Shown here in pieces: positions 26,161 through 52,793 of a stretch of DNA of 64,000 bases. The position numbers were made by a program, and so were the translations under genes. The notes under the pieces were generated by a model. The model saw only the letters and a list, made by a program, of their open reading frames with translations. It searched no databases and was not told the DNA's origin. Position 1 is the stretch's first letter. Every line of letters starts with the position of its first letter. Source of the stretch: Terebella lapidaria (lineage: Eukaryota; Annelida; Polychaeta; Terebellida; Terebellidae). Where the stretch lies: the NCBI GenBank assembly GCA_949152475.1, contig OX424561.1, positions 23,368,481 through 23,432,480 on the forward strand, given 5' to 3'.

Positions 26161-26166
26161 TGTTAT

Positions 26167-27270: not shown

Positions 27271-27284
27271 CTCCTCCCTCCCCC

Positions 27285-27866: not shown

Positions 27867-27867
27867 C

Positions 27868-29438
27868 ATATTCGCCCTCTACATCCCACACCCGCCCTGC
27901 ACACTCTCAACCTACCCTGTATATCACGCACCTACAGCGTATACCTTCCACCTATACCCTGTAAATCCCGCACCCGCCCTGTACACCCTGCATCTTTAGT
28001 ACTCTGTACATCCCGCACCTACCCTATACACCTTCAACCTACCCTGTAAATCCCGCACCCGACCTGTACATCCTGCACCTACCCTGTACATCCCGTAGCT
28101 ACCATATGCACCTTCCATATACCTTTTGTAAATCCCGTACCTCCCCTTTAAATCCAGCACCACCCTGAGATACTGCACCTATACCCTGTACATCCCGCAC
28201 TTATCCTATACTAGTACACCTTCCACTTAACCTGTACATTCCACACCTGCCCTATAAATCCCACACCCGCCCTGTACATCTTGCACATACCCTATACACC
28301 TTCCAAATATCCTGTAAATCCCGCACCCGCTTTGTACATACTGCACCTACCCCATACACCTTCTACTTACCTTGTGAATTCCGCATCTACCCTGTAAAAC
28401 CTGCACCGACCCTGTATACATCCTGCACCCGCCCTGTACACCCTGCACCTACCCTATACACCTTCCACTTACCCTGTAAATCCCACACATACCCTGTAAA
28501 TCTCGCACCCGCCCTGTACATGCTGCACTTACACCCTATACACCTTCTGCCTGCCCTGTAATTCTCGCACATACCCTGTTAATCCCGCAACCGCCCTGTA
28601 CATACTGCACCTACCATGTAAATCCCACACATATCCTATACTAGTACACCATCCACTTAACCTGTAAATTCCACACCTGCCCTGTAAATCCCACACCCGT
28701 CCTGTACATCTTGCACATACCCTATACACCTTCCAACTATCCTGTAAATCCCGCACCCGCCTTGTACATACTGCACCCACCCTATACACCTTCCATCTAC
28801 CTTGTAAATCCCACACCTACCCTGTAAAACCCGCACCTACCCTGTATGCATCCTGCACCCGCCCTTCACATCCTGCACCTACCCTATAATACACCTTCCA
28901 CTTACCCTGTAAATCCCACATCTACCCGGTAAACCCGCCCTGTACATACTGCACCTATACGCTACATACTGCAACTACCCTGTATATCCCGCAACTACTC
29001 TGTACATATTGCAAACGCCCTGTACAACCCACACCCGACTTGTATATCCCACACCTGCCCTGTACATCCCGCAAAGGAATTGTACATCCTGCATCTACCC
29101 TGTACATCCCATACCCGCCCTGCACATCCCCCACCTACCCTGTAAATCCTGCATCTTCTATGTAGCCTAAACCTCTCGTTTACTCTGCACGTACCCTTTA
29201 CAGCCTCCACCTACACTGTAGCCTATATTCCTCAACAACTACTTTGTGAACATTCCACCTATATCCTTCATATCACGCACCTGCCATGTAGGCCTACTAA
29301 ACACCTGCCCTGTATATCCCTCGTAATGTGTAAACCTCCCACCTACCCGATACATCCCGCACCTACTAGTACTCTCCACCTTCCATGTACGCCTACATTC
29401 TCCACCTACCCTGAGCATCCCCCGTCTACCCACTTTGT
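27868..29438 (+). repeat. 20-bp satellite, array 4
   Basis: About 78 units, mostly of the CCCTGTAAATCCCGCACC type, with internal longer duplications: the segments from about 28200 and 28620 onward match over more than 150 bp. Confidence 0.95.
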
Positions 29439-29595
29439 CCCCCCCCCCCCCCAACATTTCAAGATATACATTTCCTAACGAGGTCTCACAATGAGAGGGC
29501 GCACATACATGTTTGCAAGCACATTCATTCTTGGGCGGATTGATATAAATTTTGCCAGCATGTTCGGGATAGTATATAGATGATAATGTTATACA
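29439..29595 (+). repeat. Satellite spacer, copy 4 (truncated)
   Basis: 14 C and the first 150 bp of the spacer, up to GTTCGGGATAGTATATAGAT. The array resumes where the other copies continue. Confidence 0.88.
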
Positions 29596-31768
29596 CTGTA
29601 CACTCTCTAACTACCCTGTACACGCCCCCTATCGTGTACACCTTCCACATACCTTGTAAATCCTCTACCCAGCATGTACACATTCCACCTATCCTGTACA
29701 TCCTCCCCCTACCGTGTACACCTTCCACAAATTTTGTACATCCTCTACCTACCATGTACACGTTCCACATACATCCTCTTCCGACCGTGTAAACTTTCCA
29801 CCTTCCCTGTACATCCTCTACCTACCTTGTAGGTACACCCCCATACCGTGTACACCTTCCACATACCTTGCACGTCCTCTACCAACCATGTACACCTTCC
29901 ACCTACCCTGTAATCCTTTCATACCATCTACGCCTTCCACATACCTTGTACATCCTCTACCTACCGTGTAAACTTTCCACCTTCCCAGTACATCCTCGAC
30001 CTACCGTGTGCTCATTCCACCTACCCTGTATATTCTATCTCCAGCCTGTACACATCCCACCTACCATGTACATGGCCCTCTACCGCATACTCCTTCAACC
30101 TATCCTGTACACTTTTTACCTAACCTCTACATCCTTCCTTTACCGTGTACACTTTCCATATACCTTTTAAAACCTATACCTACCATATACGCCTTCCACA
30201 TACCTTGTACATCCTCTACCTATCATGTACATTTTCCACCTACCGTGTACATCCTCCCCCTACCGGACATGTTCACCTTCCACGTACTTAGTACATCCTC
30301 TACCTATCATGTACACCTTCCACCTATCCTGTACATTCTTCAACTACCCTGTACACACGTTCTAGAGTGTACACTTTCCACATACCTTGTACATCCTCTA
30401 CCTACCTTTACACCTTCCACCTACCCTGTACATACTCCATCTACCGTGTTCACATTCCACATACCTTCTCCTCTAGCTACCGTGTAAACTTTCCACCTCC
30501 CCTGTACATCCTCCCCCTACCGTGTACACCTTCTGCATACCTTGTACATCCTATACCTACTGCGTACACCTTCCATGTACCTTTTACATCGCGCACCTAC
30601 TCTGTACTCTTACCGCTTACCCTTAACACATTCTACATACCCTGTATATCATGTAACTACTCCGTACATCTTCCACATATATTGTACATCACGCACTTAC
30701 TCTGTACTCCTTCCACCTAGCCTTTACATCTCACACATACCCTGTACATCATCCCCCTACCTTGTACACCTCTCATATACCATGTACATCCCGCACCTAT
30801 TCTGTACACCTTCCACATACCCTGTACATCGCGCACTTACTCTGTACTCCTTCCATCTACACTGTACACATTCCACATGTCCTGTTCATCATGAACCTAC
30901 CTTCCACATACCCTGTACATCGCGCACCTACTCCGTAATATTTATACCCTGTACACCTTCCACATACTTTTCCTACCTACCCCGTACACCTACCCGTTCA
31001 CATTCCATATACCCTGTACATCTCGCACCGACACTGATCATCTTCCACATATCCTCTAGATTGCGCACCTAGCCTGTACTCATTCCACCTACCCTGTACA
31101 TCACTTACCTACTCTGTACACCTTCCACCTAACCTTTACATCTCACACCAACCCTGTACATCGTTCCCCTTCCCTGTACACCTTCCACCTTACCCCGTAC
31201 ACCTTCCACATACTCTGGACATTCTTTCTAACTACCCCGTACACTTTCCAAATGCCCTGCACATCATGCACCTACTTTGTGCACCTTCCACCTACCATGT
31301 ACACCTCCCACCTACCCTGTAGGTTTACATCGCTCACCTACTCTCTACTCCTTCCACCTACTTGGCACAATTTCTACATACCCTGTACATCGCGCATCTA
31401 CTCTGTACTTTTTCTACGATCAAACAACTACGACCCTGTACACTTGCTATATACGCTGTACATCGTGCACCGCCACTGTACACCTTCCACATACCATATA
31501 GAATGCGCACCTACCCCGTACACCTTCGACCTACCCTGTATATCGCGTACCTACTCTGTACACCTTCACATACCCTGTCACCTACCTCCTCTGTACACCT
31601 TCCACACACCTTTCACATCTCACACCTACCCGGTACATCATCCCGTGCCCTGTACACTTTCCACATACCCTGTACATCGCGCACCTACTCTGTACTCTTT
31701 CCACCTACCCTGTACACATTCCACATACCCTGAACATCACGCACCTACTCCGTAATAATTCCACCTAC
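29596..31768 (+). repeat. 20-bp satellite, array 5
   Basis: About 108 units. CTTCCACATACCTTGTACAT types dominate on the left and CATCGCGCACCTACTCTGTA types on the right. The right end is the insertion point of the 5.7-kb element. Confidence 0.95.
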
Positions 31769-32574
31769 TAGTACAGGAGCCAGGGGCCGAAAATATGAAT
31801 TCCGTCGGCTTTTAGTACTTATGGACAAATTTGGTATCATTGGAAAGCTGAGGGGCTGTAGGTCACGAATCTGCCACATGTAGAATTTTAAAATGTATCC
31901 GCAACCATGGTAACGAGGGTTGAAGATGACCACCTAGAAACCACTGAAATCGGTAAAATTTATGGCAAAATTTGCCATATACCATCATTCATTGTATGTT
32001 TCGGTTTATGCACTGGATTAATATTTAATCCGCTATGTAGATAGATAAAAGAAAGAGAAATACAATACAACACTTTCTTAGAAGTGTTGATGGTGGTAAA
32101 TCGAAAAATGTTACCATAAAAACCATATGTATAGTCAACATTGATATTTAGTTGCTAAGCAGTATATTGATTCGGATTATGATTATTGAAACTTGGATAT
32201 CAAAAAATATCGCCATATTATCAAAATAACTATGATCACTAATGTTTCATATCATGTAATATTATCCACATAATTATACTGTAAAATTAATCAAAATCAC
32301 CACAGCAACACATGACTGTACAAACGTGTATGGCGAGTTATTTACAAGTAAATCACAAATAAATCCCAGCACAGTTTTTTATCGGTTTTAGAACATTTTA
32401 AAATGTGAATATATACGCGATTCAATCAATTAATAGCTTAAAATAACTGAACCATTACATAGGTATCCATAGCAACCGAGATACACAAAACAAACCATTT
32501 CCATGGCAACGGAATTCACGGATATCGCAATACTGCAAAAAGGCATTTTTTTCATGTAGGCAAACCTAATTAGA

Positions 32575-33025
32575 GTATACATATACAGCAAGTAACTACG
32601 GAAAAACAGTCTTACCACAACACATCCTTCATAATTGGTTGCCATGGCATCGACTACAATACATAACATTAGTAACAAATAATATATACAGCAAGTATAC
32701 ATATACAGCAAGTAACTACGGAAAAACAGTCTTACCACAACACATCCTTCATAATTGGTTGCCATGGCATCGACTACAATACATAACATTAGTAACAAAT
32801 AAACGCACATGTATGTTGATCTATTTTTTATGGTTGAATTGAACGATTGTATACACAACTAGATTGTGTAGCTTTTATACTACAACATCCTTCATAATTG
32901 GTTGCCATGGCAACGACTACAATACATAACATTAGTAACAAATAAACGCACATGTATGTTGATCTATTTTTTATGGTTGAATTGAACGATTGTATACACA
33001 ACTAGATTGTGTAGCTTTTATACTG
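32575..33025 (+). repeat. Triplicated block containing X-box palindromes
   Basis: A block of about 120 bp (TATACAGCAAGTAACTACGG ... CATAACATTAGTAACAAATA) is present at 32579 and 32699. The part from CATCCTTCATAATTGGTTGC through AACGCACATGTATGTTGATC recurs from 32885. Each has GTTGCCATGGCA(T/A)C. Confidence 0.88.
32901..32914. promoter_or_regulatory. Perfect RFX X-box palindrome
   Basis: GTTGCCATGGCAAC is the full symmetric consensus bound by RFX transcription factors, which control ciliary genes in animals. A second perfect copy is at 35142-35155, and one-mismatch copies are at 32638-32651 and 32758-32771. Function in this context is unproven. Confidence 0.5.
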
Positions 33026-33725
33026 CAACAAATTTTAATATAGTTTGTGTGAGCACCTGTATTATTTTTCAGACGGCAATAACTATTTCCATTTAGTTGT
33101 CGTAGCGACCATACTGATATATTATACGTATCTGTGTAGTCTGCTGATTCTCATCCACTGTCAGGCCAAACTATAACAAAAAGCTTGATAGCAAGCAATA
33201 GCATTTACATGCATGTCTGTACGTACATGCAGAAGAATTAATCACGCATTCATATGTGGTATTTACACTCGAATGATCATATCCACAATACAGAGCATGA
33301 ATCATACTACCAGATATGAGCTGCAGCCAAAACGAGGTTGTGGCACACTCATAACAGCAACATTACAAACATATAACCCATTGCAAGTGGCGGCAAACGC
33401 GAGGTTGTGGCGCACCTACAACAGGGATGGACGACATGAGATGAGTGACATGCATACATGTAGCAACGATATAATAATAATAATGAGCATTTTATAGTCT
33501 AGGATCACCAACTCAAGTCGGTCTCTCTGACTGCACAATTATTATCCCCGGCAGACCTGTTCACTCCGACACATACTCAACCTCCTGGGAGGCATACAGC
33601 TCTATGTGCAGCCATTTTCAGGCGCAGAGAAACTATTCATGCACATTGTCATTTCTGTCTATAGCCAGGTGCCCAATTATACTGTTTGGGTGAACAGCAT
33701 ACAGCAGCGCAGGTGAATGCACAAA

Positions 33726-38640: not shown

Positions 38641-39158
38641 ACAGCCCAATCTAATATTGTGTTCATGTTAGGCAGAATGATCTACAAGTAAGACAGACAG
38701 CAAAAAAAAATAGATCCATTTTCTTCCTTTATCAAACGAAAGATTGAAAAAATGTCATGCTTTTATTTCAAGGTTTTAGTTAAGATGCGTACCTCAGAAA
38801 CGTACCTGAGATGGGAACATGTGATGTGCTTTTTGAGCACACAAAAGGCAATGGAAGCGCTTTGAACATTGTGTCCAGCTTCCCTTCGAATGCATGATTA
38901 TCTGAGAATTTCAGATACATCTTTACATGATTGGCATACTGAGATATAAGATACTTCGAAATTGTATATTTCATACTCATTCGCGTTTTTGTTGCGCTAG
39001 GAATGATATCGCTTAGTTGTTTATATCAGTGAGCAACACAGAAATTTGCAATATTGCTTGCATGCCGTTTCGACTATTCCCTTATTTACCTGAAACGAGT
39101 CACGTGTCGTGTTTTGATTCACGCTTGAGTGCTTAATTTGGTTGTGGTGAATATATTA
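38641..39158. other. Short single-copy stretch before the LTR retrotransposon
   Basis: Nothing recognised. Its last four bases, ATTA (39155-39158), are the left target-site duplication. Confidence 0.5.
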
Positions 39159-39892
39159 TGTAGTAATTTTAGCGACTGTTACTCCCGTCCCTCCCGCGCA
39201 CTACACATTTCCACAACAAACATTCATTCTACATGACTTACATACAGGACAAGTACACACTATACGATCACAAGCATAAACTCCATGTAGTCATGGTTAC
39301 ATACACAGGTCAAACCACGCACCTGCGGCCCCGCTAGCTCAGTACACTCGGCCCCGTTTACTCGACCTTGACCTTCACATGCACTGACTTCTAAACATAG
39401 AACTTGACACACATACTCCATACATCACGTGCACACATACAGGCATTCCAAGTATTGACACGAGCCGGGGAAACCCACTTTCCCGGTGACATCAGCGCAT
39501 TGCACCACACATTCAACCTATCACAACACCGCTTACACTTGGCGGGAAATTACACAGCCACATGGTCCCTCGGCCCCGGTCTACTGCGCAGAAGTGTAGT
39601 GTAAATCCCAGTGGCAGGACGTATATACAAGAAGCTCCTGTGAGACTGTCGATATTAATATATATAATCTATCGGATATATGTGCAAGTTGTGTAAAGGA
39701 CTATACTAGGGATATAGAAACATAGACTGGGATATCACCCGACGTAGGTGAGAGTGCGACCCTGATTGTGCGTGATTGATCATCAGTCTTTATCACCACA
39801 ATAAACAGTTAAATTGAAACTGCCGGCTTATTGTATCACACGACGACCCAGTTAAACCGGCTTGATATCGGCCGTGAACGATATTCTTCACA
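39159..39892 (+). repeat. 5' LTR
   Basis: 734 bp, TGTAGTAATTTTAGC ... ATATTCTTCACA. An AATAAA hexamer lies near 39801, and CGRCCC motifs occur five times. The 3' LTR shares TTA just before the TG, so the left border could be a few bases further out. Confidence 0.92.
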
Positions 39893-39893
39893 T

Positions 39894-39911
39894 TGGCGCC
39901 GTTCGACCAGG
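39894..39911 (+). other. Primer-binding-like site
   Basis: TGGCGCCGTTCGACCAGG starts one base after the LTR. TGGCGCC is the usual start of a tRNA-primed minus-strand site. The tRNA species is not identified. Confidence 0.65.
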
Positions 39912-39956
39912 ATCTGAGCTAGTCTCGGATTATCGACCCCGATTTGACCGGCAGAA

Positions 39957-42515
39957 ATGGCGATGGCTCCGCCGCTCGACCCTACGGATGACGAGGTAAC
40001 GTTCAATCCGAACCCGGCCTTCCGACCTTCCGGCCCCCGCTCAGTTGCCATGAGCGACACAGTCCCGTTGTCACAGGAGCGACAACCGACCGGCCTGTTC
40101 GACTCTTTCGGTGACCAATCGTCCCTGACTTCGTCCGCACCACCTGAAGACCGCATCGGAGCGTACCTCGACGAAGACCCGCTCGCGCCCTTACACACAG
40201 TGAGTGACATTTTAAGTGCACACGCTAGGGCATACTCGGCCACGCCGGCCAGAACGACCCAGAAATTACGAAGTAACTTTACCGGCAGAGACTATACACG
40301 CTCACGTCAAAGAGCGAGTGTATGTGATCGTATCGTACATTCTACAATGAACATTCGGCCTGTAACCATGGATACATCAATGGTTACACACCCGCCAAGC
40401 GACCCTCGGATACGGCAGTGGGTCTGTGACAATGATAATGTTACGGAACTGGTACCGCCGAGCGCTTATTCGGCAACCCGACCCCGGGCGCCATCAATGA
40501 CGCCAATGCAGTACGACCCAGTACCAGCGGTGTACTCTCGTCTACCGACCGAGCCGACCGTGGTAGAGTACATTCGACCCAGCCAGGAGAGAGCGACTAC
40601 AGGGAGCATTCCAGTGACGACTGCTGTCCAGATCGCGACATCTCCAAGTCCGCAACGACCCAGCGACGCGACAACAGAATATCGCGCCTCCACACGACCA
40701 GCGCGACCTCGGCAACCACCATCTACGTCAAGTCGCCGACCCTGCGACCCCGACACGCCGACTTCCGACACACGCGCTCCCGCGCCGACCACGCACCGAC
40801 CGTCGCCGACTACCGGAGAACAACCGCGCTTTGATCCGTCACAAGATCAAGTTGTGTCTGCTCCGGCAGAAAGTGTTGTGCCAATGATCGGACCTCCGAT
40901 CTCACAATCAGTCGGAAACACCAACGGATATGGTGTACCGCCAGTCGGATACCCTGGCGCAACAAGCGGTGTTCCAAATGGAGTAGCTGTCAGATACTAT
41001 TCACCGCATGTCGGCTACGCGAACCCACCGCCCGGATATGGTGGCGTTCCCAGCGTGATAGCTGACACCGGCTATCATGGTGCACAACCCGGATTAGTGT
41101 ACCATGGTGTATGCCCAGATGGATCGGTATACCGATATCCACCACCGGCTGTATTCCCACCCTCAGTCGGGATACCATGGGTGACGCCTCCATACAGTCA
41201 ACCGGCCCCTGCTGCACAAGCACCACACGACCCCAGTCACACGACGGCACCACCCGCCGCATCGCTCGCCGTCTCCGCGACGACAGCACCGACCGCCCCC
41301 GCTAACGCGACCCCGATCGGCCCAGATACGACGGCTCCGGCGACTTCGGCTGTTCCGACTCCGACGGCCACTGCAGCGACTACACCAGTTGCGGTGAGTG
41401 TTGACACGCCCACGCCACAGAGACTCACGTCTGAGCCCCAAACGTTGGCTACGGCTAAAATGGCTCAATGGCGTGCGACCTTTAAGGAGGGCAATCTCAC
41501 TCAATACGTTCGGAGTTTCGAGCAATTCGCTGCGGCCTTCACTTACTCCGACCTCAACAAGACGACGACCTTCCGGAGCACGCTACGCGGCCGCGCTGAA
41601 GCGCTAGCTCTAAACATCCCGGTCGCAACTCCCTGGGGAGAGTTCCGTCGCCAACTCCTAGAGGGCTGGGAACCCGAGCCCCGTCGACAGTCCAAACGGG
41701 ACGATTTCCCGTTCCTCAAGCGGGAACGAAAAGAGGACGCGGAACACTACATGGAGCGACTCCAGGCCCTGGCGGAGCAAGTGTTCGATGACGTTACGCC
41801 AACGTCGCGGCAACGAACTGTAATTGCGCAATTCGTGAACGGCCAACCCGACCCCATTGCCGATAAACTGTGTGCCCTCACTTTTAACAGTTACAGTGAG
41901 GCACTTACGGCCGTTCTCAAGGTAGAGAGTCGTCAACAGAGGACAGCCAGAGATCGACATCGAGGCACACGACGTGCTGACATTTCCGCAAGCGGATACG
42001 CGGAAGACGACCCTGTCAATGAGGAACTGTCCTGTGCCATGGGACAAGTCACTCAGGGGGAAACACTAACCCCAGAGCAAATTGCGGCCTACTACGACCC
42101 CGCGGACAGTGACACTACCGGCCTACAAGGTTGCGACGAACACTCAGTGCCAACCAGCTCACGCGAGTGGGTGGCTGAAGCCTTCCAGTGCGTCCTTAGT
42201 GACGAGAATGGACTGTGCGAGGAAACGGCTATCTTCTCTGTCCTACGAACAACGGCCCCGATGAAAGGTGATCGACCCCCGCAACCCGGACGACCCATGG
42301 TTTGCTTCTTTTGCAAGAAGCCCGGCCATCGCTGGATGCGATGCTTTCGGCTTAAGGATGTGCTAGTACGTAACGGCATGAAACCGCTAGCATTTCGGCC
42401 CAATGGTCCCGGTACTGACAGAAGGACAGCTCAAGTGTTGTCAGTACCTAACCAAACCGGTAACCAAACCAAACCGGCCCCACCAACACCTCCGACCCCG
42501 TCGTCAAACCAGTAG
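39957..42515 (+). CDS. gag: Gag-like ORF of the LTR retrotransposon
   Basis: 852 codons. The first 480 residues are a low-complexity Pro/Thr/Ser/Ala-rich region with Tyr-Gly-Val repeats (about 340-400). A Gag core follows (about 490-690) with the region WRATFKEGNLTQYVRSFEQF and a REDAEHYMERL-like helix pattern. A CCHC zinc knuckle, C-x2-C-x4-H-x4-C, is at about 783-796. Gag forms the particle and binds the element RNA. Pol lies in another frame shortly downstream, as is usual for the family, which uses frameshifting or read-through to make Gag-Pol. Confidence 0.9.
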   Translation: MAMAPPLDPTDDEVTFNPNPAFRPSGPRSVAMSDTVPLSQERQPTGLFDSFGDQSSLTSSAPPEDRIGAYLDEDPLAPLHTVSDILSAHARAYSATPARTTQKLRSNFTGRDYTRSRQRASVCDRIVHSTMNIRPVTMDTSMVTHPPSDPRIRQWVCDNDNVTELVPPSAYSATRPRAPSMTPMQYDPVPAVYSRLPTEPTVVEYIRPSQERATTGSIPVTTAVQIATSPSPQRPSDATTEYRASTRPARPRQPPSTSSRRPCDPDTPTSDTRAPAPTTHRPSPTTGEQPRFDPSQDQVVSAPAESVVPMIGPPISQSVGNTNGYGVPPVGYPGATSGVPNGVAVRYYSPHVGYANPPPGYGGVPSVIADTGYHGAQPGLVYHGVCPDGSVYRYPPPAVFPPSVGIPWVTPPYSQPAPAAQAPHDPSHTTAPPAASLAVSATTAPTAPANATPIGPDTTAPATSAVPTPTATAATTPVAVSVDTPTPQRLTSEPQTLATAKMAQWRATFKEGNLTQYVRSFEQFAAAFTYSDLNKTTTFRSTLRGRAEALALNIPVATPWGEFRRQLLEGWEPEPRRQSKRDDFPFLKRERKEDAEHYMERLQALAEQVFDDVTPTSRQRTVIAQFVNGQPDPIADKLCALTFNSYSEALTAVLKVESRQQRTARDRHRGTRRADISASGYAEDDPVNEELSCAMGQVTQGETLTPEQIAAYYDPADSDTTGLQGCDEHSVPTSSREWVAEAFQCVLSDENGLCEETAIFSVLRTTAPMKGDRPPQPGRPMVCFFCKKPGHRWMRCFRLKDVLVRNGMKPLAFRPNGPGTDRRTAQVLSVPNQTGNQTKPAPPTPPTPSSNQ

Positions 42516-42661
42516 GGGAAGGTGCTGAGGAGCAAGGACCTTCCAGACAACAGGACAACGTTCCCCGCTCCACATCTGCGGTTGTCACGACTACTGTACC
42601 GGTAACGACACCAATAACGACCCTGCAGCCGGCCCAGCCCACACCTCAGCTCCTTGGAGGG

Positions 42662-45600
42662 GTGTGTACAAAATGTCAAGCTCCGACCCCGAAATCGGCC
42701 TCTTTTCATGAAGGGGTGTCCGCACCGCGGCCACAGCGACCACCACGTGGAGACCGTCGTCCTGAAGGGGTGTCACCCCCGACCGCCAACGGCACCGGAA
42801 CGGACAGCATGTCCGAGATCGAGTGGATCTCCGACGACGGAGGATTCTACGCTTTTCCGAGTGGACCGGAATCCAAACTGCCGCCTCTGCACACACTCTT
42901 CCGGCCACCGCTAGACGACCCCGAAATTCCGGCTGTCATCAACAACTCCAGCGCCACCAATCACAAATGCTGGAAGTTGCCGGTACACGTCGGAAACAAG
43001 ACGATAAAGGCTGTACTCGACTCCGGAGCGCAGATCTCCCTACTGCGACGCGATCAGCTACGTCACGTCCCCGCTGACCAGCGACATTTGCGGTCTACTT
43101 CGGCTATTATTCGTGACGTCACCGGACAGTCAAGCCCGATCGATGGACTGATCGACCTCTCAATACAGGTCGGAACCAACCATATGGTCGTAACCTTTTG
43201 TGTGGCTGACATACATGACGACATGATTCTCGGCATGAACTTTTTTCGGCAAGCTCACGCTGTAGTGAATTACGGTGAAGGGACGATACAGGTACACAAA
43301 GAAATCCTGTTCGCCCATAAAGACATTGAGGCCAATGTTGTCAGAATGGCCGTGCGACGAGCTGTCACCGTCCCCGCACGCAGCGAAGCAATAGTGGAGC
43401 TGGTCCCGACTTCCCGAGTTCGAGTTCGACAACACCCGAGGATAGTCCAGCCACTTACGACCTTTCCCGAGGAAACCGACCTCATCATGGGGAGAACACT
43501 TACGACCCTGAATCGGCAGTGCGTAAAGGTGTCGGTAGTCAATCCAGCAGATACCGGCATTACGCTCACCCGTTCCGACCCTGTCGCCATAGCAAGCCCT
43601 GTCGAAAGTGTCGTCGGAGCTCTGCCACGACCCGGAGAGGAGCCCGACCCGGCCACGGTAGACGCCAGTCACTACCGCGACCTACCGCCACATCTACAAG
43701 AAATGGTGGATCGCGCCGGACTAGCGCCGGAACAGCATCGGCGTTGCGCCAACCTGGTTCACCAATACCAGGACACATTTATGCACCCAGACGGCCAACT
43801 GGGACGGACCCAAGTCGTCCAGCATAGAATCGACACCGGCAACTCGGCCCCAATTCGACAACGACAGCGACGCGTCCCTCAGGCACAGCAAAGCATCATC
43901 GACGAGGAGATCGACAAGATGCTCCGCTTGGGGTGTATTGAGCCGTCCGATTCGCCCTGGAGCGCACAGGTAGTGCTCGTGCGGAAGAAGAACGGACAGG
44001 TACGCTTCTGTGTCGACTATCGGCTCCTGAATGACGTCACCCGCAAGGATTCGTATCCCTTGCCCAACATTCAGGATACTCATGACGCCCTGGCAGGCGC
44101 CAACTACTTCTCGGCCCTAGACCTGGCCTCTGGCTACTGGCAGGTTGAAGTCGACCCCAGCGACAGACCGAAGACTGCCTTCGCCACAAGGAAGGGACTC
44201 TATCAGTTTAAGGTCATGCCATTCGGCCTTAGCAACGCCCCGGCAACCTTCGAACGGCTTATGGAGACCATACTCCGTGGTTACTTGTGGACCCGGTGTA
44301 TGTGCTATCTCGACGACGTGATAGCTTACGGCAGAACATTCGATCAGGCACTCGCAAACCTGGAAGCGGTCCTGGATCGAATCAGATCGGCAGGCCTGAA
44401 ACTTCAGCCCAAGAAGTGTGAGTTATTCCAACGGGAAATCTTGTACTTGGGGTTCATAGTGAGCGGCCAAGGAATCCGAGTCGACCCCAACAAAGTCAAA
44501 GCCATCAGAGAATGGCCGACCCCGTGCGAGATCACCGACGTCAGGGCTTTCCTTGGTTTCGCCAACTACCACAGGCGATTCATCAAGGACTACGCTGAGA
44601 TCGCTGAACCTCTCGTAGCGCTTACCCGAGGTGAATGCCACTTCACTTGGGGACCGGCCCAGCGACGAGCTTTCCAGCGACTCCGCGACGCCCTCATCAA
44701 GGCGCCCAAGCTCGCTCATCCGACCCAGAATCCGGAGGACTACTTCATCCTCGATACGGATGCAAGCGGCTTTGCTGTGGGAGGAGCCCTCTCACAAAGG
44801 GTTAACGGGAAGGAGATCCCCATCGGGTTCGCCAGCAAGACCCTGTCCCGGACCCAGCGGAACTATTGCACCACCTATCGGGAACTACTGGCAGTAGTTG
44901 AGATGGTGCAACACTATCGGCACTACCTCTGGGGTAGGAAATTCCTCCTCCGAACCGACCATAGCTCGCTAAGGTGGCTGAAAAACTACAGCGACGCCGA
45001 CGGCATGCTCGCTAGGTGGCTCGCCAAGCTACAGCAGTATGACTTTCGGATAGAGCATCGACCCGGAAAATTACACGGTAACGCCGACGGCTTGTCACGG
45101 TGCCACAGTTGCAAACACCAAGACTGTCCCGGACGACTCGTCACACCTCCGACCGACCCAGAAACAAGTTCCGGAGAACTTCCAGTTCGTCGGATAACTG
45201 TTGTTCCGACCCAGACAAGGGCAGACCTCCTGGACAGTGATTCGATAACATCACCGGTCTTGCCCCAGCTAGTTTCGGCACGCCAAGTTGTTCGAGTCCG
45301 TGCTTTGGACGCCACACTTGATGGACAAAAGTGGCTTTCGGACTATTCGACCCAGGACATTGTCGCGGCACAGCAAGCCGACCCCAGCGTCGGAAAAGTG
45401 CGGCAATGGATACTAGCCGGCACCAAGCCCGACTCACGAGAAGTCGCCCGCCAAGGAGAGGAGGTAAAGACACTTGTTTCTCGCTGGAACCTCCTGGCGC
45501 TACAAGACGGTGTGCTAGTTCGACATATAAAACCCGACCCTGCTGGACGGCCCGTGGTGCAAACCGTGCTCCCCGTAGCACTCAGGACACAAGTTCTGCA

Positions 45601-47047
45601 CCAACTGCACGACCTCAAGATTGTCGGACATCTCGGCATACAGCGTACCATCGAGAGAGTCAGGCGCCGATTCTACTGGCCCGGCTTGGCGCTGGACGTC
45701 GCCCGCTGGTGTGCCCGCTGCCCGCAATGTGTGACCCGCAAGGGTAAACCGGCCCCAAAAAGATCGCCCCTGACACAGCTACCGACAGGAGCGCCGTTCG
45801 ACAGAATAGCGATGGACATCCTCGACACCCACAAGGTCACGGGAAGAGGCTATCGGTATGTGCTAGTCGTGTCGGACTACTTCACGAAGTACACTGACGC
45901 TTTTCCGCTACGGCGACATACGGCCAAAAATGTTGCCGACACCCTGGTGAATCGGTGGATAGTCTACCACGGTGTCCCCAAAGCGGTCCATAGCGATCAA
46001 GGTACTGAGTTTGAGTCGTCCCTGTTCCGGCATGTTGTGCGTCTACTGGGCGCTAAGAAGATTCGTACGACCCCATACCGACCCCAGAGCGACGGCCAGG
46101 TTGAGCGATTCAACAGGACATTGCTCAACATGCTGAGTGCGTTCGTCAGCGATCGTGCAAACGATTGGGACTTGCACTTGCCATATGTGATAATGGCCTA
46201 TCGAACCTCAGTACACTCGTCCACGGGATGCACCCCGCATCTGATGGTGTATGGACACGAGTGTAACTTGCCAGTCGACCTCATGTTTCCGACCTACGAC
46301 CCTGAGCCTCTACCTCCGTGTGGTCCGGAGTATGTGGAGTATTTGCGGCAAGCCATCAGAACGGCCCACGGTTTCGCCCAAGACCATCTCGAGAAAGCGG
46401 CAATTCGGCAAAAGTTGGGTTATGACGCCCACGCGAAACCACGACCCCAGTTTCAACCAGGCGAACTGGTCCGGTATTATTATCTGCCACTCACGCAGAA
46501 TAATAAGTTCGCTCGGCCCTGGACTGGTCCCTGGAGGATCATCGACCGTGTAACCGAGGTGGATTACCGAATCGCCCTGGTTTCCAACCCTCGGAACACT
46601 CGTGTTGTTCATCTGGATGTGCTCAAGCCATACGAAGGTGACAACCAAGCGGCCCACATCTACTCCGACCCTGTACGACCCACGTCGTCGTCAAGCAAGT
46701 CCGACCCAGAACAGTCACCCGACCCCATGGGACTTCTCAAGGAGTTCTATTACCCTTGGGAGGTAACAGTCCAAGATCGGCATACTGATTCAGACCAAAC
46801 AGCAGAGTCTGATTCGCAAACGACCCCGGATCGTCAATCGCGATCTCCGACTTCATCCGGCTCAAGTCGACATCGGCAACGGAAAAGATCACGTAAATCA
46901 AGTTCCGACACTCCAAAACCGGCACGCAAGACACGCAGGCAAAAGCCTGTGGTATCTTCCGACCCTGAGACAAGCGAGGCTACGCCCCCGCCTGCACGAC
47001 CAAGTCGACCCAGACGCAACGCACGCAGACCGGCCCGCTACAGATAA
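42662..47047 (+). CDS. pol: Pol polyprotein of the LTR retrotransposon
   Basis: 1461 codons with the full Ty3/gypsy order. The aspartic protease has LDSGAQ near residue 119. Reverse transcriptase has FCVDYRLLND and YLDDV near 549, and RNase H has LDTDASG near 697. The integrase has an HHCC finger (about 985-1035) and a DDE core, including HSDQGTEF and QSDGQVERFNR, followed by a GPWRI-type C-terminal module. The last 130 residues are a Ser/Lys/Arg/Pro-rich tail. No chromodomain is seen. Together these enzymes copy the RNA into DNA and insert it in the genome. The first ATG of the open frame is unlikely to be the true start of the polyprotein. Confidence 0.95.
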   Translation: MCTKCQAPTPKSASFHEGVSAPRPQRPPRGDRRPEGVSPPTANGTGTDSMSEIEWISDDGGFYAFPSGPESKLPPLHTLFRPPLDDPEIPAVINNSSATNHKCWKLPVHVGNKTIKAVLDSGAQISLLRRDQLRHVPADQRHLRSTSAIIRDVTGQSSPIDGLIDLSIQVGTNHMVVTFCVADIHDDMILGMNFFRQAHAVVNYGEGTIQVHKEILFAHKDIEANVVRMAVRRAVTVPARSEAIVELVPTSRVRVRQHPRIVQPLTTFPEETDLIMGRTLTTLNRQCVKVSVVNPADTGITLTRSDPVAIASPVESVVGALPRPGEEPDPATVDASHYRDLPPHLQEMVDRAGLAPEQHRRCANLVHQYQDTFMHPDGQLGRTQVVQHRIDTGNSAPIRQRQRRVPQAQQSIIDEEIDKMLRLGCIEPSDSPWSAQVVLVRKKNGQVRFCVDYRLLNDVTRKDSYPLPNIQDTHDALAGANYFSALDLASGYWQVEVDPSDRPKTAFATRKGLYQFKVMPFGLSNAPATFERLMETILRGYLWTRCMCYLDDVIAYGRTFDQALANLEAVLDRIRSAGLKLQPKKCELFQREILYLGFIVSGQGIRVDPNKVKAIREWPTPCEITDVRAFLGFANYHRRFIKDYAEIAEPLVALTRGECHFTWGPAQRRAFQRLRDALIKAPKLAHPTQNPEDYFILDTDASGFAVGGALSQRVNGKEIPIGFASKTLSRTQRNYCTTYRELLAVVEMVQHYRHYLWGRKFLLRTDHSSLRWLKNYSDADGMLARWLAKLQQYDFRIEHRPGKLHGNADGLSRCHSCKHQDCPGRLVTPPTDPETSSGELPVRRITVVPTQTRADLLDSDSITSPVLPQLVSARQVVRVRALDATLDGQKWLSDYSTQDIVAAQQADPSVGKVRQWILAGTKPDSREVARQGEEVKTLVSRWNLLALQDGVLVRHIKPDPAGRPVVQTVLPVALRTQVLHQLHDLKIVGHLGIQRTIERVRRRFYWPGLALDVARWCARCPQCVTRKGKPAPKRSPLTQLPTGAPFDRIAMDILDTHKVTGRGYRYVLVVSDYFTKYTDAFPLRRHTAKNVADTLVNRWIVYHGVPKAVHSDQGTEFESSLFRHVVRLLGAKKIRTTPYRPQSDGQVERFNRTLLNMLSAFVSDRANDWDLHLPYVIMAYRTSVHSSTGCTPHLMVYGHECNLPVDLMFPTYDPEPLPPCGPEYVEYLRQAIRTAHGFAQDHLEKAAIRQKLGYDAHAKPRPQFQPGELVRYYYLPLTQNNKFARPWTGPWRIIDRVTEVDYRIALVSNPRNTRVVHLDVLKPYEGDNQAAHIYSDPVRPTSSSSKSDPEQSPDPMGLLKEFYYPWEVTVQDRHTDSDQTAESDSQTTPDRQSRSPTSSGSSRHRQRKRSRKSSSDTPKPARKTRRQKPVVSSDPETSEATPPPARPSRPRRNARRPARYR

Positions 47048-48495
47048 CCCCGGCCTTGTTATCTGATTGATGTCATTGATGATGAATTATGCATGTCTAA
47101 TGGACTATGATATCATGTCTTTCCCAATAATAATATATTATATTACAATAACAATATATGCATTTAATATGTACAAGATGTCAGTGAGGCAAACTGGTTA
47201 TATACACACTAGATATGATATTATAATTATGATGCTGGTGAAAAATTGGTTGCATGATGATATGTGTTTCGACCCCGTATAACATGTACCATTGATCAAG
47301 GCGTATGTTACGCAATGACTAAGATTATCATGTAAAGCTTCAATCCATGTGTCAGCCGAAGAGGATAATAACCAGTCATACCGTGAGTAAGGCCACTTAG
47401 TTGTCGAAGAGGTGATAGTGTGATTCGTTCCGGAGTATGCGTCGACAGAGCCTCTACTCACTCCATGTAATATTCGGAGGAACGGCCCAGTGGTACGGGA
47501 ACCAGTCACTACATAGCTATCATGCCAAGATGCGGCCTGTCATCAAATTCATCACCCAAAATATTCAAAGCGCCGCGGTGTGACCGACCCAGATCATTGC
47601 AATTTCGACCCCTACAATATTTGCGGCCCCGTCGTCCTGTGAACTGGCTGAAAATGAATGGAACGATGTCCGCCCCTGTGAGTGATTGATATTCATATCT
47701 CAGCCTTTAATAACTGTGTGTCGTCTGTGAAACAGCAACTCGACCCCGTAGTTTATTGTGCGCTAACTTGTGGGAGAAGGAATGATGGACTGATGAGTTC
47801 ACAAGGCACGCACGAGCGCTAATAAACATTTTAGCTGTTTACAGCACCTACATGAAGTCGCCCCTAATAATTACAATAGTGAGTCGTCGGGCAAAAAGAG
47901 CCCAGTAATCTGAATAGTCGACTAGTATAAAAAGACAATGATTCGGCACGAGTTATCCAGGGGACGGCAGCTGGACATACGGAAATCTGGACAGTGTGAG
48001 GACACCCCTACTGTCGTAATGGACTGACCCAAGAGGTCAGAGAAGGATCGCCCCGCGTTTCCTTGACGACGGCCCCGCCTTGCTGTGTGTACGCTTGGAA
48101 CAATGATACATAGCGTAAAGACGTTTTCTATACATATAGAGAGCGCCCCCCGGCCCAGTTCTAAGAATTGAGATGCTGTCAGCATCTTTGTATACGGCAT
48201 TGAAGATTAGCGGCAATCAGGTCACTTGTGCCTGAGACTTTGGAGGAGAAGGACTATTGTCAGAAGTTTCGGCTATCGAGATACAGACTATTGTTATAGA
48301 AACTGTGCTAATCGAACAATATTTATCGGCCTATAGACTGTGATATCATTGAAATCCTGGTCACAAGACTTTGGAGTTAATTCGGCTTGTATCATCGGCA
48401 TTTGAACTAGGCTGGTTTTGAAGAAATCCAGACTTTGTTACAGCCAGCCTAGTCAGTACTTGGGAAGTACTTCGGCTTAATTTCGGCCCGTCAGC
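47048..48495 (+). other. Non-coding gap between pol and ORF3
   Basis: 1.45 kb without a usable ORF, yet CGRCCC still occurs about nine times here. This is the likely place for a splice acceptor or internal promoter for ORF3, but I cannot assign either with confidence. Confidence 0.6.
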
Positions 48496-51294
48496 ATGGC
48501 TGACAAACCCGGAGACGACCGGGAAAATAGCGACCCAGGTGACAATCGGCCCCGCACAGTTAAGCTGGACGGCGATAACATCACCGTCCAAGTGATCGAC
48601 ACCGGGGATGAATCGGATCATCCTATAGTCGTCCCCGACAACGAAGTTTCGTCCGGCCCCGACTCGCAGCCTGAACAGCGCGATCCAGTCACGCTCAGTG
48701 ACACGGCAAGCGGATCAGAAAAGGGAGCGCGACCCAAAACGGCCCGGAGCAAGCTAGCGCAACGAGGAGAGCGCCATACACCGAGCCCGACTCCGGATGA
48801 TATCTTCAATATCGACCCCGAACGCTTCCGCCGACTCGAGGAGGGCGGAAGTATCGTCCAGCGTGCGATTGAGGCACGACAAGCGGCCCAAGAAGCTCAA
48901 CGAGTCGCCACCGCGAGCCGCCAACCCGACCCAGCAAATCAGGTGATCGCCCCGATCGCTCCGGCCCCGACTTCACCCGCTTCCGGTTCAGCGGTAGCAC
49001 GACCTGCGGCCTCCCGTTCTCCAAACAAGAGAACTTATACTTCTTTCAAGAAGAAGCATGGAGCGGGAGCCCGATCGACCTCCAGCAGTTCGTCACGCTC
49101 CAGCGGCGGATCTGCTATTACGGCCCCGACCTCGACTTTCCGTCGGCAAGTGGCGGAATTAATGGAATTGGTGCCACCTCCCGTGACACCCTACGGAACT
49201 CGGCCCATAGACTGGAACAAGGTTCCACTCAGTAAGCGAAATCGGAGCGCTGGATACGGCCACATCCATAACTTCGATGAGCAGTCGACCCTGTCGGAGG
49301 GAAACCTCCTCACATTGGCCCCGCTACAGCGTGGAGACGGTCGATTCGAGTGCCCCTTCTGCATCGGCGAAGAGGAGGGAGCAGGAGAACGACAGTGGTC
49401 CTCCGTGCCACGACGCGGACCTTTTCGGACGGCCCAGAGTCTTGATGCGCACGTGCTAGCGTATCATTTTCCGTTCCTGCGCTACTTCGTGTGTCCGGCC
49501 CGCGACGGCTTCCGGACATTGGCCCAGGAGGAGATGTTCCGGCATCTGTCTCAAGCGACCCCGCAACACGTGACGTCGTTCCCCTTCTACCAGGAAGGAC
49601 GACTATCGGCATCCGGCCCCATGCTCGTCAGGTTCGCGCTACGCTGCAGAGTCGACATGCAGCCGAACCCGAATTATCGACCCCCAAGAGTTCCGGCCAA
49701 CATCCCGATCTTCAGGAGGGATGTCAACACCGTCCTGACGTTCGGCATCTGGCACATGGCGCCAGAGCTCTTTGAGCAGTATCCGCCCAACTCGGCCCCG
49801 GAAGTGCAACAGGTACTCCGTCGACTGGAGTACAATCGTGCTTCGACCCCGGCAGACGAGATTCGGCTTACCCGCATGGTCAGTGACATCGAGACCATGA
49901 ACACGCGGGTTCGAATTCGACGACCCAGTACGATCTTCTTCGTTCGGCCCATAAACTACCAGACGACATCGGTGAGCACGGCGGAGGAGGTCCCGACAAC
50001 GACCACCGGTGTTTCGGCCTCGGCAGTCGTCACGACGGCTTCGTTCGCGACAGTGGTGTCGCCAGCGACAACTCGACCGGTCACCACAGTGACATCCTCG
50101 ACCCCGTCTAGAGCTCGGCCGTCGGATATCATACCCCGGCGGATGGTTGTGGAACGACCCACGGCCTCTAACGTCACGGACTACCGAGTCCGTGAGGGAT
50201 TGGTCCCTCCACCTGAGGAGTATCCGCCACTCCCAAGTCGACCCCTGAATACCACACCGGTATCGTCATCAACCGGCAAGGAGACTCCCGAGCCGAAGAG
50301 TCCAGTTGAGGATCGGCCACCTCCACTCAGGGAGATTGCACCCGGATCTCCTGTACGTGCGACCCCGACACCGTTTTCGACCCCGGAATCTTCACCGGAG
50401 CCTTCACGACGGATGGTGGAACCCGTCCCGCTCCCGCCGTACCTCACGGAGGAAGTGGAACCTCTGCGTTCCGTTCCGACACGCGGCACCGATCGAGACC
50501 GGCCCCGACTCCAAGTGGACGACCCAGAGCAGCTCGAGTCACTCCACAGAGACCTCGACGAGCGTCTGCCGCTTCATGGATCCGGCGAGTTCGCGGCCGA
50601 TTTCCAGTTCCTGCGGCAACACGGCAGACGTTTGGCGACCCGCTCGCTTCCCGGCCTGCAGGCACTACCCGGCCAGAATCCCGACCTCACAGACTTCCTA
50701 CGGGATGAGGACGCCCAGCGGCTCCCGAACTACCTCGGATTTCACGAGGACTTTTGGACGGCTCGTCTCGAACAGGCCGCCCATAATGCCGACCCCTTGC
50801 TTCTGCCGTCAGAACCGGAGGAGCACCTTCCGACCCTGTCACTCGCCCGCGCTGACGATTTAGCGCACCAGTACTTGCGACTGATTCGTCGGGAGTACCT
50901 GTCGGCCCTGGATCACCACATCAGGCAGGCAGAATATAACGGCCTGTCTGTCGGCTTTGGGATGGGTGCTCTGCACGAGCGCCACCAGCCCACGTTCCCG
51001 GACGCCCTGTCCGAAGAAAATCTACGGCTTCGAGTCCGTGTGACTCAGTTGGAGGACCAAGTCGCCCACCAACGACAGGAAATCACTCGGCTTCGAGCGA
51101 CTTCGACCCCGACGCCATCGGAGGCACAAGCTCCGTCGACCCCGACCACACCGACCATCCCGGGGGAGTTGTTGGCCACGATCGTGTCCATCCTGCCCAG
51201 ACTACCCCCGGACGAACAGCTACAGCTGATGCGGCAGGCATCGCCAGCGGCCCCGCCTCCTCCCGCCAGCAGGCGTGAACGGGAGGACAAGTAA
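48496..51294 (+). CDS. ORF3 of the LTR retrotransposon, unknown function
   Basis: 932 codons opening with a strong start context (AGCATGG). I do not recognise the protein. An acidic then Ser/Pro-rich N-terminal third is followed by a folded-looking middle with a first Cys/His cluster (C286-x2-C289 ... H319-x4-H324) and a second (C333 ... HLSQATPQH near 354-361). Then come a Thr/Pro/Ser-rich linker (about 480-690), a helical Leu/Arg-rich segment (about 690-820) and a heptad-like stretch ENLRLRVRVTQLEDQVAHQR near 840-865. There is no signal peptide and no membrane segment, so it is not an obvious envelope protein. A nucleic-acid-binding or Gag-like accessory role is plausible. Confidence 0.75.
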   Translation: MADKPGDDRENSDPGDNRPRTVKLDGDNITVQVIDTGDESDHPIVVPDNEVSSGPDSQPEQRDPVTLSDTASGSEKGARPKTARSKLAQRGERHTPSPTPDDIFNIDPERFRRLEEGGSIVQRAIEARQAAQEAQRVATASRQPDPANQVIAPIAPAPTSPASGSAVARPAASRSPNKRTYTSFKKKHGAGARSTSSSSSRSSGGSAITAPTSTFRRQVAELMELVPPPVTPYGTRPIDWNKVPLSKRNRSAGYGHIHNFDEQSTLSEGNLLTLAPLQRGDGRFECPFCIGEEEGAGERQWSSVPRRGPFRTAQSLDAHVLAYHFPFLRYFVCPARDGFRTLAQEEMFRHLSQATPQHVTSFPFYQEGRLSASGPMLVRFALRCRVDMQPNPNYRPPRVPANIPIFRRDVNTVLTFGIWHMAPELFEQYPPNSAPEVQQVLRRLEYNRASTPADEIRLTRMVSDIETMNTRVRIRRPSTIFFVRPINYQTTSVSTAEEVPTTTTGVSASAVVTTASFATVVSPATTRPVTTVTSSTPSRARPSDIIPRRMVVERPTASNVTDYRVREGLVPPPEEYPPLPSRPLNTTPVSSSTGKETPEPKSPVEDRPPPLREIAPGSPVRATPTPFSTPESSPEPSRRMVEPVPLPPYLTEEVEPLRSVPTRGTDRDRPRLQVDDPEQLESLHRDLDERLPLHGSGEFAADFQFLRQHGRRLATRSLPGLQALPGQNPDLTDFLRDEDAQRLPNYLGFHEDFWTARLEQAAHNADPLLLPSEPEEHLPTLSLARADDLAHQYLRLIRREYLSALDHHIRQAEYNGLSVGFGMGALHERHQPTFPDALSEENLRLRVRVTQLEDQVAHQRQEITRLRATSTPTPSEAQAPSTPTTPTIPGELLATIVSILPRLPPDEQLQLMRQASPAAPPPPASRREREDK

Positions 51295-51806
51295 ATACGA
51301 CCCCGAACTGTTCGGCCCCTTTGATGCGGCCCCGAGTGACCAAACAATTCTGGTCACGGCATATATATATTGTAAATAGTGTACATATACATTTAATATC
51401 CTAGTCATGGCTTTTTGTTTTTATACATGTAATTTTAGTTAAATTTAATCTACATTTTATTTCAGTTCATTAGACTCTTAAAGTTATAGTTCCGTTTCGC
51501 TTCGAAGCGTCGAGGAGTTTTGTTTATCATTCCATCTTTAACATTCCATTTCTCATCAGTCATTGTTATGAATGTATTTGTATATGTATCATCGTAGAGA
51601 CTGCTGACGGACTGACTGCTGACGTTTATTTTGACAGTTAGGAATTTTTATTGTATGAAGTGTTTTCTCATTTCGCGCGGCGTGTGTGTGTGAGTGCTTT
51701 TGGGTTTGACCTTTAGGACTTTTTAGCTTTTTATTGTTTAGTTTTTGGCGACGGTAGGGTCCGGGAAGGGTAATCCCGAGGGCGTAGGATTAATGAAGGG
51801 GTGTTA
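51295..51806 (+). other. 3' non-coding part of the LTR retrotransposon
   Basis: An AT-rich half-kilobase ending in a purine-rich stretch (AATGAAGGGG, 51793-51802) close to the 3' LTR, the likely polypurine tract. Confidence 0.6.
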
Positions 51807-52540
51807 TGTAGTAATTTTAGCGACTGTTACTCCCGTCCCTCCCGCGCACTACACATTTCCACAACAAACATTCATTCTACATGACTTACATACAGGACAA
51901 GTACACACTATACGATCACAAGCATAAACTCCATGTAGTCATGGTTACATACACAGGTCAAACCACGCACCTGCGGCCCCGCTAGCTCAGTACACTCGGC
52001 CCCGTTTACTCGACCTTGACCTTCACATGCACTGACTTCTAAACATAGAACTTGACACACATACTCCATACATCACGTGCACACATACAGGCATTCCAAG
52101 TATTGACACGAGCCGGGGAAACCCACTTTCCCGGTGACATCAGCGCATTGCACCACACATTCAACCTATCACAACACCGCTTACACTTGGCGGGAAATTA
52201 CACAGCCACATGGTCCCTCGGCCCCGGTCTACTGCGCAGAAGTGTAGTGTAAATCCCAGTGGCAGGACGTATATACAAGAAGCTCCTGTGAGACTGTCGA
52301 TATTAATATATATAATCTATCGGATATATGTGCAAGTTGTGTAAAGGACTATACTAGGGATATAGAAACATAGACTGGGATATCACCCGACGTAGGTGAG
52401 AGTGCGACCCTGATTGTGCGTGATTGATCATCAGTCTTTATCACCACAATAAACAGTTAAATTGAAACTGCCGGCTTATTGTATCACACGACGACCCAGT
52501 TAAACCGGCTTGATATCGGCCGTGAACGATATTCTTCACA
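51807..52540 (+). repeat. 3' LTR
   Basis: 734 bp, read as identical to the 5' LTR, and followed by the ATTA target duplication. Confidence 0.93.
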
Positions 52541-52793
52541 ATTATAATATGAAATCAATGATGAAAACACAGAGAAAACTTTCCGAAACGCAACATGCCA
52601 AGCGCAAGTGCTTCGGAATGTTACGGGCAGGTTTTGCAAGTGGTGCAATTGGGCCCCTGTGCGATGTCATCGCCATGTAATCATTCGCCTGCATGATTAA
52701 CATGGATAGCAAAACGGGAAATGCGGCCAACCGACCGCGTCCCGGTGAATAGAGTCACGACTCACCGCAAGAAAGATACATCGATCCTCTTCC

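Follow-up and report, generated by a model that had tools for sequence, protein, structure and literature searches.

The DNA analysed here, which we call the window, is a stretch of 64,000 nucleotides from the polychaete Terebella lapidaria (C7:23368481-23432480; the genome examined comprises 761.6 Mb in 438 contigs). Positions 39159-52540 of the window contain a full-length LTR retrotransposon of 13.4 kb with the pol order of the Ty3/Gypsy elements (Metaviridae). The family to which this element belongs is named family A. The features of the element are listed below by window position.

39155..39158 (no strand): left copy of the target site duplication (TSD) ATTA, sequence read directly
39159..39892 (+): 5' LTR, 734 bp, TG...CA, identical to the 3' LTR, 5 CGRCCC
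39326..52497 (+): span of the 119 CGRCCC sites (first site to last), dispersed with near-random spacing
39894..39911 (+): primer-binding-site-like TGGCGCCGTTCGACCAGG, 3' of the 5' LTR, sequence read directly
39957..42515 (+): gag, 852 aa, with the CCHC knuckle CFFCKKPGHRWMRC (by eye), 23 CGRCCC
42662..47047 (+): pol, 1461 aa, protease-RT-RNase H-integrase (Pfam), 36 CGRCCC
47048..48495 (+): non-coding gap, 1.4 kb, AT-rich, 9 CGRCCC
48496..51294 (+): ORF3, 932 aa, orphan accessory protein, proposed to read the motif, 35 CGRCCC
49168..49800 (+): central C2H2-type domain of ORF3, CPFC...LDAHVLAYH, then FVCPARD...H...H (alignment; by eye)
50998..51102 (+): C-terminal stretch of ORF3, probable coiled coil (weak matches)
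51795..51801 (+): polypurine-tract-like GAAGGGG, 5' of the 3' LTR, sequence read directly
51807..52540 (+): 3' LTR, 734 bp, identical to the 5' LTR, 5 CGRCCC
52541..52544 (no strand): right copy of the TSD ATTA

The family A element is a young animal LTR retrotransposon. Its LTRs are identical across 734 bp and are flanked by a TSD of 4 bp. Pfam matches in pol are RVT_1 (1.6e-34), RNaseH, Integrase_H2C2, and rve, and the domains lie at pol coordinates 107-197 (protease), 440-600 (RVT_1), 663-793 (RNase H), and 971-1141 (integrase). A Pfam search with gag gave no match. The element shares with Ty3/Gypsy the LTRs of the TG...CA form, the short TSD, the order protease-RT-RNase H-integrase, and the CCHC knuckle, but differs in carrying an orphan ORF3 and a family word. 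This placement rests on the pol order and the LTR features; the tree was made of the query and 49 database relatives and contains no named reference clade. Database relatives reach 71% amino acid identity in pol, and a scan of viral contigs found no relative of the family A element. The host genome holds at least 32 copies of family A pol at 99-100% amino acid identity, copy numbers being lower bounds throughout. One candidate relative locus (L001) was set aside, being a GTDB bacterial contig (JAJZEL010000139.1) with a Gypsy-like RT piece of 98 residues at its end (L001 10001-10297), probably through chimeric assembly.

Two details of the element concern its expression. The open frame of pol (1527 aa) begins upstream of the gag stop in a different frame (window 42464-42662), and gag-pol expression may require a frameshift. 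A splice-acceptor-like stretch ending in GTCAG, noted by eye, lies directly 5' of the ORF3 ATG (window 48470-48500), and ORF3 may arise from a spliced RNA. Elsewhere in the window, a long degenerate minisatellite with a period of about 20 bp (TACCCTGTACACCTTCCACC-like) and several open frames occupies 24347-31768, and at 32574-33030 there are duplicated units, 120 and 143 bp long, that are nearly perfect (98-100% matches). An ORF at 4326-5099 matches a syndecan-type transmembrane region and tail (PF01034), and we take its ending to resemble that of neurexin, a sign that the host is an animal. ORFs that look DIRS-like by eye lie near or over the window end (62296-64000), among them a 441-aa ORF that has no Pfam match.

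The most conspicuous property of the element is its saturation with the word CGRCCC on one strand. A reading made from the sequence only had estimated by hand about 110-120 CGRCCC on the plus strand and almost none on the minus strand, and the count is 119 (75 CGACCC, 44 CGGCCC) and 0. The longer form CGRCCCHG that it described fits 76 of the 119 sites, and the word is scarce in the flanking host DNA as it had stated, with 10 occurrences on the plus strand and 5 on the minus strand in the rest of the window (50,618 bases). Its view that the density is similar in the LTRs, the gap, gag, pol, and ORF3 agrees with the counts of 5, 9, 23, 36, and 35 given above; six further sites lie in other short non-coding stretches. 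All three reading frames are used, again as claimed, with frames 0/1/2 containing 7/6/10 sites in gag, 8/15/13 in pol, and 9/19/7 in ORF3. Only its random expectation of 6-7 was too low, since a Markov model of order 0 already gives 12.9. The mean spacing of the sites is 112 bp with a CV of 1.03, which is near-random, and a fixed spacing was rejected. Tandem Repeats Finder (TRF) reported one short tandem repeat in the element, which does not contain the motif, and spread of the words through tandem repeats was rejected as well, as no CGRCCC lies in such a repeat. Since the density is similar in coding and non-coding parts without tandem repeats, the maintenance of a single orientation across 13 kb would have to be under selection in its own right.

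Neither Markov models up to order 3 nor codon shuffles reproduce this number. Markov models of orders 1, 2, and 3 (100 simulations each, as for order 0) give 15.4, 24.0 +/- 4.8, and 54.6 +/- 7.3 occurrences, so that a sequence with the trinucleotide composition of the element, the null proposed as a refuting check, is expected to hold about 24 +/- 5 words and not 119. Shuffling of synonymous codons within each ORF, which preserves the protein and the codon use, gives 7.7 in gag, 9.4 in pol, and 7.3 in ORF3 against the 23, 36, and 35 observed; the highest counts among 2000 such shuffles were 16, 19, and 16. For the three ORFs together, 94 words stand against 24.6 (0/1000 shuffles as high), and selection on the protein is thus insufficient to explain them, as had been argued. 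The non-coding parts contain 20 words with one LTR counted, against 0.8 expected. The eighth place is G in 17 of these 20 sites, and it is the non-coding sites, which lack protein constraint, that best match the longer form. Most one-base neighbours of CGRCCC are near background, and a few are moderately raised on the plus strand relative to the other strand (CGRCCT 33 vs 2, CGRCCA 25 vs 3, CGRCAC 20 vs 6). A shuffle test blind to the word put CGACCC or CGGCCC at the top of its ranking in each of the three ORFs.

The element is C-rich, and a Markov model of order 4 gives 105 CGRCCC, which is near the observed count because such a model nearly contains the word. Both observations would suit a mutational or compositional artefact arising from RT bias, editing, codon usage, or composition. 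We give this explanation next to no weight. The codon and protein nulls fail, and the relative excess is largest in the non-coding parts. Four control ORFs (LINE-like, DIRS-like, bacterial, and neurexin-type; 257-1106 aa) contain no comparable word: their top words reach z of 4.5-5.5 with 3-4 counts each and a largest excess of 3.4-4.8 counts, all four being shorter than pol and so having less power. The Markov, codon, and non-coding tests, together with the conservation of the word between copies, reject composition or codon use as the source. RT bias is rejected by a sister family, described below, whose word differs although its RT is 98% identical to that of family A.

The CGRCCC words are conserved between family A copies at two time scales. 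Diverged copies were found with a 12-base pattern containing the motif, which gave eight loci. Four diverged copies of the 3' part of the element (L002, L003, L005, L006) were pooled; L004 and L007 (97% identical) were compared without pooling, L009 (97%) was left out, and L008 showed no similarity. L004 and L007 each keep 28 of 28 sites. Among the pooled copies, the ORF3 part keeps CGRCCC at 75 of 80 sites (71/76 without the site of the search pattern), compared with 374/636 for other hexamers starting with CpG. The pattern itself yields one kept site and one apparent gain per locus, and the kept one is what was removed in the second figure. The word is likewise kept above control hexamers in the 3' non-coding stretch (11/12 vs 51/80) and in the LTR (16/18 vs 56/110), where identity is 80-84%. 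The pooled copies share ancestry, as seen in losses common to L002 and L006, and p values from them are too optimistic. A/G swaps at the R position are tolerated among copies, and one further CGRCCC site was gained in L003. Copies of pol keep 58 of 60 words in L041 and 57 of 62 in L042. The copy behind L002 is 96% identical to A in pol (L041) and about 89% identical in the 3' part of the element, a sign of recombination between subfamilies.

Recent variation shows the same tendency in 29 further A copies, a comparison that takes in 61 of the 119 sites. The fixed bases of the motif vary at 4 of 305 positions, compared with 58 of 793 directly flanking positions. Among non-coding C/G positions, none of 55 in the motif varies as against 59 of 670 others (p 0.008), and CpG bases vary at 1/122 in the motif as against 49/1026 (p 0.023). 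Within codons, the same direction is seen without significance at third positions (3/89 vs 80/1075, p 0.1) and at four-fold sites (3/64 vs 45/559, p 0.25). The trinucleotide null and the conservation in relatives, including the non-coding LTR, support the function at the nucleic-acid level that the sequence-only reading had suggested; neither of the two outcomes that it had named as refuting occurred. Its list of possible functions (sites for an element protein, RNA packaging, or anti-silencing like that of VANC) can be narrowed by what follows but not decided.

Two sister families came to light in the same genome when it was searched with relatives of A pol taken from the databases. Family B (L040) is 88% identical to A in DNA and 94% in pol amino acids, and family C (L043, L044) 70% and 81%. 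Each family is enriched in a different word on the sense strand, namely CGRCCC in A, TTCGGC in B, and CGRACT/CGRAC in C; oligonucleotide sequences bearing these words are CGACCCCG, TTCGGCA, and CGGACT, respectively. Relative to coding shuffles, TTCGGC occurs 31 times in B (5.7 expected), CGRACT 50 times in C (13.0 expected), and CGRAC 107 times in C (47.5 expected). Family C has no excess of CGRCCC (5 vs 7.8), nor is the B word enriched there relative to coding shuffles, and neither A (7 vs 7.4) nor B (6 vs 5.3) shows an enrichment of CGRACT. The only overlap among the three families is a partial one between A and B, with TCGGC raised in A (43 vs 15.7) and CGRCCC raised in B (44 vs 14.2). When A and C are aligned, 2 of 47 A sites start in the same column as one of the 71 C sites (CGRAC), with a mean of 0.64 and a maximum of 2 in shifted alignments. 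Positions are thus hardly shared, so that A and C have in essence become saturated independently of each other over a similar protein. Taken together, the three words are very probably selected, family-specific sites.

Family B carries two words in different proportions in its parts. Its pol contains 15 CGACCC (4.5 expected) and 13 TTCGGC (1.8 expected), and its ORF3 contains 13 TTCGGC (2.9 expected) and 2 CGACCC (1.3 expected). Here B pol is L040 (copy C11) and B ORF3 is L048/L051 (copy C6), which are different copies of one hit group. Across aligned A and B pol, 13 CGRCCC are found in A only and none in B only, and 9 TTCGGC are found in B only and one in A only. B pol thus looks half-way between A-type and B-type words. 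In this two-way comparison of A and B, the 15 shared CGACCC sites suggest that B pol may descend from an A-type pol. The idea that family B lacks ORF3 was rejected, as ORF3 is absent from the L040 copy and present in other B copies. Individual copies vary in ORF3: in the B copy L047, the C-terminal part stands where the ORF3 start is expected, which is likely a deletion, and the C copy L045 has lost, through an internal deletion that preserves the frame, the finger region kept in L049 and L050.

What reads these words? Because the three families share one genome, a single host reader should impose one word on all of them, and a single host-imposed word is rejected by the differences among the families. 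The family specificity of the words favours a reader encoded by the element, and we consider such a reader highly likely. The strand specificity and the placement in both coding and non-coding parts would also suit a host RNA-processing factor that suppresses splicing or polyadenylation, or exports unspliced RNA, with the families using different factors. The position of ORF3 after a 1.4-kb gap, judged from sequence, probably calls for a subgenomic RNA, which would fit such a role. Three close families with three words in one host, and an A/B pair that has most of the backbone but not ORF3 in common, make a host factor very improbable.

Two element proteins, Gag and ORF3, come into question as the reader. 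Between A and B, amino acid identity is 98% in RT, 96% in RNase H, 97% in integrase, 84% in the protease, 88% in CA, and 82% in the NC region. ORF3 stands at 64% over 674 columns. The A-B dS is 0.55 in pol and 0.88 in the compared part of gag, and is saturated in ORF3. Since ORF3 is more diverged between A and B, its history seems older than that of the rest of the element, and an exchange of ORF3 between lineages would best explain this. In the Gag zinc knuckle, A and B are identical and C is nearly so. ORF3 is a better candidate than the knuckle because the knuckle is thus almost invariant and ORF3 is strongly diverged between A and B.

If Gag were the reader, the dispersed words would act as multi-site packaging signals bound during particle assembly, as has been proposed for some single-stranded RNA viruses. 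The idea of dispersed packaging signals is an established one (PMC6281560), and sites along the whole genomic RNA in the sense orientation only, LTR included, fit packaging. Between A and B, gag has also diverged further than pol has (81% vs 94% amino acids over the parts compared, B Gag being represented downstream of its N-terminal half), and NC-region identity between A and C is 48%, the C gag having been compared over 170 columns. Against Gag, its knuckle hardly changes despite the different words, and the word changes in step with ORF3, whose divergence is saturated, and not with gag, which over the parts compared has changed modestly. The Gag reading is accordingly a possible but unlikely one. 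It is reasonably likely, from these comparisons, that ORF3 is the reader of the family word.

ORF3 itself has features that may suit such a role. Its C2H2-type domain is kept in A, B, and C according to the alignment, with R or K in the FVCPA(R/K)D stretch, the finger being assigned by eye, and one of four ORF3 members gave a weak match to zf-Di19 (E 0.052). Matches for the probable C-terminal coiled coil are at E 0.17 and 0.42 in the A protein and at best 0.00077 to coiled-coil families in other members. The A protein has no Pfam match above the cut-off, two protein searches that each scored about 8000 candidates returned no homologue, and matches in the PDB were at E 0.04 or worse. An AlphaFold model of a piece of ORF3, made without an alignment, had a pLDDT of 30 and was not used.

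All three family words lie mainly on the sense strand, and families A and C also avoid the complement of their own five-base core. GGYCG occurs 11 times in A where 29.4 are expected, and GTYCG 6 times in C where 17.4 are expected (each 0/1000 shuffles as low). The complement of the other family's core is not avoided (GTYCG in A, 34 vs 28.1; GGYCG in C, 19 vs 17.4). For the six-base complements, GGGYCG is absent from A (3.8 expected, 7/1000 shuffles as low), and AGTYCG in C shows a slight deficit without significance (3 vs 5.0, 225/1000). Relative to coding shuffles, family B does not avoid its own complement GCCGA (17 vs 18.2) and does avoid GGYCG (12 vs 24.9). AGTYCG, the reverse complement of the C word, is above expectation in B (L046, L040, L048, L051; 14 vs 6.4) and in A (12 vs 7.2).

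The persistence of one orientation over 13 kb without tandem repeats argues for recognition of a single strand and thus of RNA. Sense-only use, and the fact that A and C avoid the complement of their own core, speak for RNA rather than double-stranded DNA, and we think it likely that the word is read at the RNA level. Predicted accessibility gives this level no support: although the A sites come out as less paired than permuted versions of the word (0.047 vs 0.028, p 0.003), the antisense control does so equally (p 0.0003), and the ORF3 sites of C show nothing.

The DNA-level alternative is an anti-silencing activity, in which an element protein, probably ORF3, would bind the words in chromosomal DNA and keep its own family active. 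Dense, family-specific short words combined with a fast-diverging accessory protein are the picture described for VANDAL and VANC in Arabidopsis, where the VANC21 motifs are likewise in a single orientation (PMC5735166). Every family word contains a CpG, and ORF3 has a C2H2-type domain. The VANC motifs as described lie mostly outside coding sequence and have spread through tandem repeats (PMC5735166), whereas the present words are both coding and non-coding and lie outside tandem repeats. If duplex DNA were bound, A and C would not be expected to avoid their own complement core. The accessory protein of a VANC system binds its word in DNA and removes methylation, a role that ORF3 would have to share under this reading. 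We find anti-silencing improbable.

VANC/VANDAL nevertheless is, by analogy, the nearest evolutionary precedent. Dense short words inside the element, which differ between related families (PMC5735166, PMC10398659), and a fast-diverging accessory protein as reader, a role presumed for ORF3, are the likenesses, as judged from the features described for VANC. VANDAL is a DNA transposon on whose DNA the system acts, with motifs mostly in non-coding tandem repeats (PMC5735166), and the family A element is an animal LTR retrotransposon with RT. Furthermore, 94 of the 119 family A words lie in ORFs, not in tandem repeats and on one strand throughout, and A and C avoid their own complement cores.

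The nearest functional precedent, also by analogy, is CERV of Cer1, an LTR retrotransposon of C. elegans. CERV is described as a nuclear protein that concentrates on the genomic RNA and is required for its export, and as a protein that differs greatly from species to species and has predicted coiled coils and a candidate Cys finger (PMC10309623). ORF3 would resemble it as a fast-diverging accessory protein of an LTR element, with its finger assigned by eye and its coiled-coil matches weak. Unlike ORF3, CERV is a five-exon product whose first exons share the frame of gag, and a dispersed motif does not figure in the description of CERV considered here (PMC10309623); the two proteins are likened by their descriptions. 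The packaging signals of single-stranded RNA viruses offer a third comparison. They too comprise many sense-strand sites along a genome (PMC6281560), and such sites are conserved in family A. The viral signals promote capsid assembly (PMC6281560), whereas the word here is linear and varies between sister families together with ORF3.

We propose that CGRCCC(H)(G) forms recognition sites for an element protein on the sense strand, likely in the full-length RNA, and that ORF3 reads them for family-specific export or packaging; for this reading as a whole we see the chances as evenly balanced. ORF3, with its C2H2-type domain and probable coiled coil, would bind the genomic RNA at about 100 weak sites. 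Coated in this way, the RNA of the protein's own family would be chosen for export from the nucleus and/or for packaging, so that the step served may be export, coating, or packaging. The family word would keep ORF3 from serving the RNA of a sister family. A more specific version, to which we give somewhat less than even chances, is that the word acts as a private address code on RNA, read on the sense strand by a fast-evolving ORF3 and written over the whole element, its coding parts among them. Acquisition of a foreign ORF3 would then trigger the rewriting of the backbone, a process that may be half-way in B.

A search of titles and the beginnings of abstracts, mostly of open-access papers and without preprints, found no strand-specific family word in an LTR retrotransposon. 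If the proposal is true, a retroelement uses a distributed sequence code to tell its own RNA apart from the RNA of close competitors. Reader and words would evolve together, and protein-coding sequence would be bent to carry the code. This would be a parallel to VANDAL/VANC in another class of element, and one that probably works on RNA. A natural experiment is available in families A, B, and C, with three words, three ORF3 proteins, and one backbone that holds two words, and it makes retroelement self-recognition and its shifts in specificity directly testable.
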